Positions 46,379-48,272 of a stretch of 64,000 nucleotides of DNA are shown in pieces. The notes beneath the pieces were generated by a model. It had not been told where the DNA came from. It ran no database searches and worked only from the letters and a program-made list of their open reading frames with translations. How positions within the stretch are numbered: position 1 is the stretch's first letter; every line of letters begins with the position of its first letter. Origin of the DNA: Haloarcula salina (GTDB taxonomy: Archaea; Halobacteriota; Halobacteria; Halobacteriales; Haloarculaceae); assembly GCF_010119195.1 (NCBI RefSeq), contig NZ_WRXL01000004.1, positions 186,001 to 250,000 on the forward strand, read 5' to 3'. Made by a program: the position numbers and the translations under genes.

Positions 46379-46452
46379 GTCAATATATATCATACGGAGC
46401 GAAATAAATCTACGCCCCGGACGAGAGGTAGTGTTTAGTTTGGAGCATTGTG

Positions 46453-47126
46453 TCAGCGTGCGAAACTCTGCAACCAGTTTTCGGCTGTTTCCGGTTGGAC
46501 GTGACTGAAGCAATTTGAAAATGACGAGGTGCGACGTTTCAGCTCTCGAAAAATTCGCTCGACAGCGTTCCGATTTCCGTGGCGACACATCTGAAATCGG
46601 AGGCCAGCTCGTTGCAGCGCAGTTTGGAGGTGTTGAGCGCCATCAACGAGAAACACGGCAGTTTCGATATCGTGTTTTTGGCGAAGTTCTCGCAGGAAAA
46701 TTCCGTGAGAGTGGTCGTAGTCGTCGCAAACAGCCGGACGTGAAGCAGTTCATTCGACTGCGGATCGGCGGCGTTCGCAAGAGCACAGCTCTTGCGCAGC
46801 CCATCAGAATGGCTATGCCATTCTGAGGACGGCGTACAGCCAGAACTGCTGGTCGTTGATTCGAATCACTGTTTCGTCAAGCGCGATCTGATTCGGAGAT
46901 TTACCCGATTCGGGCTGTAGATTGGCTTTTTGCACCCAATCGTGAATCGCTTTTCGACTGCGTTGGACACCCAGCGCTTCGAGCAATTCGTCGGTATTCG
47001 ACAGTGACAACCCCGCAACGTACGATTGAATACCCAGCGCCATCGCCGACTCGGGTGTCCGCTTGCGCTCCACAAAATCCAAATCAATTCAGTCGCTACT
47101 TCCGCTGAGGCGGCTGATTTCTGCCA
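46453..47126 (-). pseudogene. Broken IS6-type DDE transposase, copy 1
   Basis: The coding sequence should start at MAEISRLSGSS, but a TGA stop follows within 15 codons. The rest shows the IS6/IS26-like domain with the first Asp in ALDETVIRINDQQFWLYA, the second in FLVDGAQHL, and the Glu region GNRNAVERIFRELKRRTSSFS. Around 46770-46830 a short insertion with two hairpins shifts the frame after QFWLYA. Two lesions make it inactive. Confidence 0.85.
46770..46830. repeat. Double-hairpin insertion inside transposase copy 1
   Basis: Two hairpins sit next to each other: CGCAAGAGC-ACA-GCTCTTGCG (46776-46796) and AGAATGGC-TAT-GCCATTCT (46806-46824). They interrupt the transposase between codons for LYA and DPQS; about 58 bp appear to be inserted. 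The same insertion is in copy 2, with the second loop reading ATA. Confidence 0.75.
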
Positions 47127-47201
47127 TAGACCAGCAAGAAATCCGTCCGCATCACTTTTCACGCTTAACTAAACACGACCCTCGAAAATGCCTCGATATA
47201 G

Positions 47202-47414
47202 TTATGATCGAAACACAAGGAGATACGTTCCGGAGACCAGTGTAACAAAACCGCCAACCATCGTTGAAAAAGCTACTGCTTGGGCTGCCACATCCTGCGT
47301 ACACTGCTGCTCTAAACCCGTGCCATAGGCACACCTGCCGGTCGGCATACTGAAACCGATAAGTAAGATTATTGCACCAACAAGAATAATCAAATATATT
47401 TGCCAATTTTTCAT
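47202..47414 (-). CDS. 70-aa membrane protein between the two insertion sequences
   Basis: A two-helix protein: MKNWQIYLIILVGAIILLIG, a short extracellular loop with two cysteines (GRCAYGTGLEQQC), and a second helix FSTMVGGFVTLVSGTYLLVF. Codons are AT-richer than in the flanking genome, fitting an acquired gene. It lies in the 280-bp segment between two directly oriented IS copies. Function unknown; a superinfection or immunity role would be speculation. Confidence 0.55.
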   Translation of the reverse strand: MKNWQIYLIILVGAIILLIGFSMPTGRCAYGTGLEQQCTQDVAAQAVAFSTMVGGFVTLVSGTYLLVFRS

Positions 47415-47478
47415 TTCTATTAGACAACACTCATATGATAGGTTTTAATCTTGGTAGTGTTTAGTTTGGAGCATTGTG

Positions 47479-48154
47479 TCAGCGTGCGAAACTCTGCAGC
47501 CAATTTTCGGCTGTTTCGGGTTCAACGTGGCTGAAGCAGTTTGAAAACGACGAGGTTCGGCGCTTCAGTTCTCGAAAAATTCGCTCGATGGCGTTCCGAT
47601 TTCCGTGGCGACGCATCTGAAATCGGAGGCCAACTCGGGAAAGTGCAGTTTGGAGGTGTTGTGCACCGTCGACAAGAAATTCAGAGGTTTCGACATCGTG
47701 TTCCTGCCGCAGTTCTCGCAGGAAAATTTCGGTGAGAGCGGTCGTGGTCGTTGAATACAACCGGACGTGAAGCAGTTCGTTCGATTGGGGATCGGCGGCG
47801 TTCGCAAGAGCACAGCTCTTGCGCAGCCCATCAGAATGGCATAGCCATTCTGAGGACGGCGTACAGCCAGAATTGCTGGTCGTTGATCCAAATCACTGTT
47901 TCGTCGAGCGCGACCTGATTCGGAGATTTCCCCGATTTAGGCTGTAAATCAGCTTTTTGTACCCAATCATGGATGGCTTTCCGACTCCGTTGGACACCCA
48001 AACAGTCGAGTAATTCAACGGTATTCCTCAGCGAGAGTCCCGCAACGTGTGATTGAATACCCAACGCCACCGCCCACCCGGGTGTCCGCTCGCGCTCCAC
48101 AAAATCCAAATCAACCCAGTCTCTATGACCGTTGAGGCGGGTGATTTCTGCCAT
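47479..48154 (-). pseudogene. Broken IS6-type DDE transposase, copy 2
   Basis: The N-terminal half is intact (MAEITRLNGHRDWVDLDFVE, then HTH and DETVIWINDQQFWLYA), reading to a stop inside the hairpin insertion at about 47797-47857. The second half is in another frame: LVDGAQHLQTALSRVGL and NRNAIERIFRELKRRTSSFS. Unlike copy 1 it lacks the early stop codon, so it would be active but for the insertion. Confidence 0.85.
47797..47857. repeat. Double-hairpin insertion inside transposase copy 2
   Basis: Hairpins CGCAAGAGC-ACA-GCTCTTGCG (47803-47823) and AGAATGGC-ATA-GCCATTCT (47833-47851) occupy the same transposase position as in copy 1. The loop of the second hairpin is the reverse complement of that in copy 1 (ATA versus TAT). 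Confidence 0.75.
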
Positions 48155-48272
48155 GAACCAGCAAGAAATTCTCCCGCCTCACTTTTCACGCTTAACTAAA
48201 CACCGCCACCGCTTCCCGGCAGACCGTTATGGCTTCTGAGAATTGGGCCGCAACAATTTACCAATAATCGCT

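Follow-up and report, generated by a model that had tools for sequence, protein, structure and literature searches.

A putatively mobile two-hairpin element of haloarchaea interrupts two IS6-family transposase genes of Haloarcula salina at the same codon

The window, a stretch of 64,000 nucleotides of the Haloarcula salina genome, carries two insertion sequence (IS) copies with terminal repeats of 14-15 bp (Table 1). They belong to the IS6 family, as the NCBI IS6 model NF033587 recognizes their intact relatives (E 1e-54). Outside a two-hairpin element that both contain, the copies are 85-86% identical (14.5% divergent), and a small minus-strand ORF for a putative membrane protein of 70 amino acids (47202-47414) lies between them. 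In copy B, this element is the sole break in the transposase ORF; copy A is decayed further, with a TGA at codon 13 and a frameshift. The transposase is split between its QFWLYA and AADPQSNE blocks, where the element shifts the frame and supplies a stop.

Table 1. Positions of the IS6-family copies and of the two-hairpin elements within the window
Feature	Position	Strand	Remarks
IS6-family insertion sequence copy A	46427..47180	-	decayed; terminal repeats 46427-46440 and 47167-47180
IS6-family insertion sequence copy B	47452..48208	-	terminal repeats 47452-47466 and 48194-48208
Copy B transposase, N-terminal part	47831..48154	-	ends at a stop within the two-hairpin element
Copy B transposase, C-terminal part	47479..47796	-	frame differs from the N-terminal part
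Two-hairpin mobile element copy A, with flanking CGs	46772..46831	+	covariance model R1, E 1e-19; relatives with empty sites
Two-hairpin mobile element copy B	47799..47858	+	covariance model R1, E 1.6e-19
Hairpin P2, copy A, CGCAAGAGC-ACA-GCTCTTGCG	46776..46796	+	compensatory changes in relatives, 4/9 pairs
Hairpin P3, copy A, TCAGAATGGC-TAT-GCCATTCTGA	46804..46826	+	compensatory changes, 4/9 pairs
Hairpin P2, copy B	47803..47823	+	same sequence as P2 of copy A
Hairpin P3, copy B	47831..47853	+	loop ATA, reverse complement of the TAT of copy A

In both copies, the segment spans 60 bp from CG to CG and consists of CGTTC, hairpin P2, the linker CAGCCCA, hairpin P3, and GGACG; counting the CGs, four bases precede P2 and five follow P3. 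An earlier sequence-only reading of the window had reported the same two-hairpin segment in both transposases with a flipped second loop. Indeed, P2 and P3 occur in both without a single mismatch, all 57 of the 57 bases outside the P3 loop are the same, and the loops TAT and ATA, the sole difference between the segments, are exact reverse complements. No further copy of the hairpins with up to three mismatches was found in the 64-kb window, where 0.04 and 0.00 chance matches were expected. That reading had also placed a break of about 58 bp after QFWLYA. Uninserted IS6 relatives read CTGTACGC-CG-CCGCCGATCC at this site, while filled copies have a CG at either end; thus, the net insertion is 58 bp. 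None of the intact relatives carried the segment in frame.

To determine how widespread the segment is, we searched other genomes. Within the family, a 66-base query matched 72 of 146 genomes, and its matches lay at many unrelated locations, so the segment is not unique to this locus. A covariance model detected the element in 359 of 391 haloarchaeal genomes of a class-wide sample (83 of 86 genera); its copy counts per genome are lower bounds, with the best ~14 candidates per genome scored. In an exact-pattern scan of 84,980 prokaryote species, all of the matches listed (at least 80) were haloarchaeal. Phage and viral collections contained no match to the element, Rfam returned nothing credible among the seven element loci tested, and a literature search that included the exact sequence found no publication or name for this two-hairpin family. 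The 58-base double hairpins of the window are copies of a tiny, probably mobile element present in nearly all haloarchaea.

Alignment of 45 distinct copies yielded a strand-specific fold composed of an outer helix (CGTT/GACG, with a G-T pair), P2, the linker, and P3; the pairing of the element ends CGTTC and GGACG includes one wobble. In this alignment, 98.8% of the cells were paired, both-side changes occurred at 8 of 22 pairs, and the covariation exceeded that of every shuffle and slide. The length of the element is 53-62 bp in nearly all copies.

Reverse-complement loops at the same site and on the same stem were found in 11 groups. When three-base loops were tested, 10 of 22 multi-loop groups held a flipped pair, as compared to 7.4 expected from the pooled loops. 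Thus, flips do not significantly exceed the pooled loop composition and represent a common pattern without statistical proof, and the idea that loop inversion is a statistically distinct process was rejected. The P2 loop, read on the same strand, was GAA in 57 cases and TTC in 6, a strand bias that fits a strand-specific DNA fold. The oligonucleotide d(GCGAAGC) forms a very stable DNA hairpin. Template switching inside hairpins is known in other systems and would explain both the loop flips and the perfect stems.

We then analyzed the target sites of 200 element copies, which fell by their flanks into 91 site kinds (a few rows being regex variants of one copy). An uninserted relative was available for 28 site kinds; the empty site contained CG in 25 of these, and keeping a single CG gave an indel-free alignment in 21. 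CG alone is repeated by the insertion, and the target consensus over the site kinds reads C-G-R-[CG]-N-Y-G. The joined element ends, GGA-CG-TTC, are near-palindromic and resemble this consensus (GR-CG-NY). Judged from these sequences, such a CG-to-CG rule would be expected from a single-strand (IS200/IS605-like) or a two-base-core mechanism and argues against a longer target duplication. Copies from different genera also lie between two T-runs, TTTTTcgcccaCG/TTTTTg (L063-L065, L080, L081, L084, and L098-L100), possibly a recurrent terminator-like target. Others recur next to a repeated GGGTGGGACTGAAAGGGGC...CG/acgcaagcactg block (L047-L050, L070, L078, L096, and L101).

The element lies preferentially in other mobile elements, with tnpB and IS6 transposase genes as its chief targets. 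Using tblastn with TnpB and IS6 seeds, we located 64 of the 200 copies inside such genes, at 13 site kinds and in both orientations, the element being antisense at the window's IS6 site and sense at several tnpB and other IS6 sites. The IS6 targets include the window's codon and other positions. In TnpB, two sites adjoin the RuvC motif (VLG/VDLGVN and DLG/VNS), one lies in the N-terminal half (LHRAIPD/DAKLKQV), and one lies in the C-terminal tail (HSEST/PVETALP), where 17 distinct element sequences of two lengths were found. At the LHRAIPD and HSEST sites, the insert length was divisible by three in all 25 copies, as compared to 46 of 165 elsewhere, a comparison between non-independent copies. 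These in-frame inserts are nearly all stop-free and add 19-20 residues, while a frameshift is nearly always the outcome next to RuvC and in IS6. In the annotation of public plasmids, two TnpB genes with an in-frame element stand as intact TnpB-type ORFs, and one of these adjoins an annotated tnpA. Thus, part of haloarchaeal TnpB diversity consists of short translated insertions, which is relevant to TnpB modeling or engineering, and a set of transposase genes annotated as broken shares one common cause, the insertion of this element.

Subsequently, we traced occupancy of the window's codon on an IS6 tree, in which L259 was taken as occupied at this codon and L104 as occupied at another site. 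The ten occupied copies are dispersed among empty ones, and nine changes of occupancy are needed, at least six of which are forced by well-supported branches. Five separated lineages are filled, and their element subtypes differ. The sequence-only reading had favored one insertion before the duplication of the IS; given the dispersal of the occupied copies, this is insufficient for the site as a whole. For the window pair, a shared origin stays plausible, since the six filled copies of the genus (the pair and four others) are of one subtype, with an ACA loop and an ATGGC stem. The two elements of the window probably share one element lineage. That they are more alike than their host IS (0 of 57 differences versus 14.5%) suggests conversion, a later arrival or transfer, or constraint. 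The changes of occupancy may be gains or precise losses, and either implies mobility unless recombination between IS copies carried the segment. Instead of fresh insertions, recombination and the spread of the host IS could account for much of the recurrence at particular sites.

From these sequence comparisons, we conclude with good though incomplete confidence that the segment represents a palindromic haloarchaeal element, mobile and non-autonomous, which inserts at CG and has split both IS6 transposases of the window at the same codon. The palindromic mini-element of the sequence-only reading is borne out by the dispersed copies, the covarying two-hairpin fold, and the exact empty sites. 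The element would move as folded single-stranded DNA. A transposase supplied in trans is predicted to cut the target behind RCG and the right end of the element behind GACG. Hairpin template switching during replication may then keep the stems perfect and flip the loops. For the mobilizing enzyme, an IS200/IS605-type Y1 single-strand transposase acting in trans is our leading candidate, although we hold it at slightly less than even confidence. Within the family, presence of a Y1 tnpA was weakly associated with element copy number (means of 5.9 versus 3.8, p = 0.03), with clear exceptions: Y1 transposase genes are absent from the genome with the most element matches in the family (G149, at least 15), from another with at least 10 (G001), and from the window's own genome. 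A dependence of the element on a Y1 gene was rejected on these grounds, and with several element-rich genomes lacking Y1 tnpA, a different enzyme is quite possible.

The same element could instead be driven by a 2-bp-crossover recombinase (serine type as in IS607, or IS110-like) or by a DDE transposase that duplicates a 2-bp CG target, a possibility that we rate clearly below the Y1 candidate but take seriously. A 2-bp core would yield a CG at both ends, as would a 2-bp duplication, the near-palindromic joined ends agree with the target, and the missing Y1 genes in element-rich genomes point in the same direction. However, we know of no serine-type, IS110-like, or DDE family that features terminal hairpins with strand-biased loops. 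That one insertion into an ancestral IS6 was inherited by the window pair, with IS spread, precise loss, and recombination accounting for the rest, appears unlikely. The single subtype within the genus and the sameness of the window segments outside the loop speak for it, but the forced occupancy changes, the other subtypes in deep lineages, and an element without differences in hosts 14.5% apart argue against it. Somewhat less likely still is a terminal-only remnant of an IS200/IS605 transposon (PATE), in which the hairpins would be the fused left and right ends. Such derivatives share with the element near-terminal hairpins, short length, lack of target duplication, and hosts; moreover, the 52-bp terminal-only PATEs of Haloquadratum may be mobile, and IS605 elements occur without target duplications (PMC3119063). 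However, the palindromes of PATEs are alike and set in, with a terminal region of 20-50 bp beyond them and the longer distance at the 5' end, whereas the hairpins here are dissimilar and terminal, with four bases beyond P2 and five beyond P3. Furthermore, a larger parent with the same left and right ends was not found in 276 loci (~1.46 Mb), which yielded only composites of three to four hairpins.

That the segment is a structured RNA or a terminator-like regulator, spread for its function, is improbable in our view. This reading would account for the strong covariation and for the copies between T-runs in several genera, but the element lies in either direction with respect to host genes and also inside transposase genes, the seven loci had no credible Rfam match, and hairpin self-correction can likewise yield compensatory changes. 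The sequence-only reading had also raised an archaeal intron-like or recoding structure. An intron or programmed recoding that restores the transposase would fit the disruption of an otherwise conserved gene at a single codon, but the sequence itself contradicts this reading, which we regard as barely credible. The RNA fold of 121 nt showed two local hairpins and, at the junctions, neither a bulge-helix-bulge nor exon pairing (a 4-bp helix with two 3-nt bulges). Moreover, the element is reversed at other sites, and intact IS6 relatives lack the segment.

Among known systems, comparison suggests that the mobile element proposed here most resembles the head-to-head dimers of CGTC-tagged REPs, a class of bacterial repetitive palindromes (Di Nocera 2013, PMC3733652), and the small mobile repeats (SMRs) of Haloquadratum. 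On its minus strand, the element reads CGTCC-P3-TGGGCTG-P2-GAACG, so that CGTC and CGTT tags, which may pair, face outward in a head-to-head arrangement. It shares with the REP dimers outward CGTC/CGTT tags, stems of ~8-10 bp, short loops, a conserved short unpaired linker, in-frame insertions in genes, and no known transposase (PMC3733652). In contrast, REP stems are 8-9 bp long and begin with A-T pairs, with loops of 4-5 and a CCA tail, while the element has different stem sequences (TCAGAA and AGAGC, not AT-first) that start T-A/C-G or C-G, loops mostly of 3, and no CCA tail on both hairpins. It also differs in its low copy number (1 to ~15), outer tags that may pair across the element, a strong tnpB/IS6 preference, and possibly the defined CG insertion rule. 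The hosts in PMC3733652 include no archaea, while the element is haloarchaeal. Because the stem and tail signature differs and archaea lie outside those hosts, we did not file the element as a CGTC-tagged REP member. A bacterial CGTC-type palindrome dimer was also seen in an annotated plasmid ileS of Sphingopyxis indica (L279:395-480); it runs CGTC...GACG, and no close relative with an empty site was found for it. More tentatively, the elements may be class-wide archaeal micro-elements that fold as single strands, home to fixed TnpB and transposase sites, are kept in TnpB as in-frame peptides, and are moved by a not-yet-recognized enzyme, with the bacterial CGTC-tagged REPs as mechanistic relatives. 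No mobilizing enzyme is known for short CGTC-like-tagged palindromic repeats. This family adds hundreds of copies, exact empty sites, a dinucleotide target, and recurrently hit codons, and thus the enzyme can be sought experimentally.

The SMRs of Haloquadratum walsbyi, SMR-A and SMR-B, measure 80-110 bp (SMR-A ~110 bp; PMC3119063). Like the element, they are haloarchaeal, transposase-free, and palindromic at the ends, have no known means of mobilization, and insert into other mobile elements; inverted terminal repeats without target duplication are shared with SMR-A, the element repeating CG alone. SMRs insert into near-terminal palindromes of IS605, and element flanks at L042, L069, and L157 look similar, although tnpB/IS6 coding sites are commoner. 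The shorter length (53-62 bp), the CG rule, the in-frame TnpB insertions, and the class-wide spread set the element apart from SMRs as described in PMC3119063. REPINs, mobilized by RAYTs, likewise form one mobile unit of two outward-tagged hairpins, but they carry a GTAG tag and have RAYT genes, in contrast to the CGTC/CGTT tag here. One haloarchaeal tnpA tested against the RAYT model scored 25.9 (cut-off 80), and the sole Y1 subclass reported from archaea is IS200-like (PMC6006769). Rickettsia palindromic elements also add protein residues through in-frame palindromic insertions (PMC10969869; PMC3733652); however, they are bacterial, were ~150 bp long in the first report, and lie in metabolic genes, while the element lies in transposon genes.

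Last, several loci showed variations of the two-hairpin architecture. Composites at L159, L202, and L263 consist of two P2-type hairpins head to head or of three to four hairpins bounded by CGTT and GGACG, which suggests that the hairpins are exchangeable modules. A second two-hairpin family, CGTTCGAGAGAGC-loop-GCTCTCTC GTGATGA CGAAA...TTTCG AACCACC, was found at L048:1612, L074:3096, L185, and L240, in the same kinds of genome as the main element.
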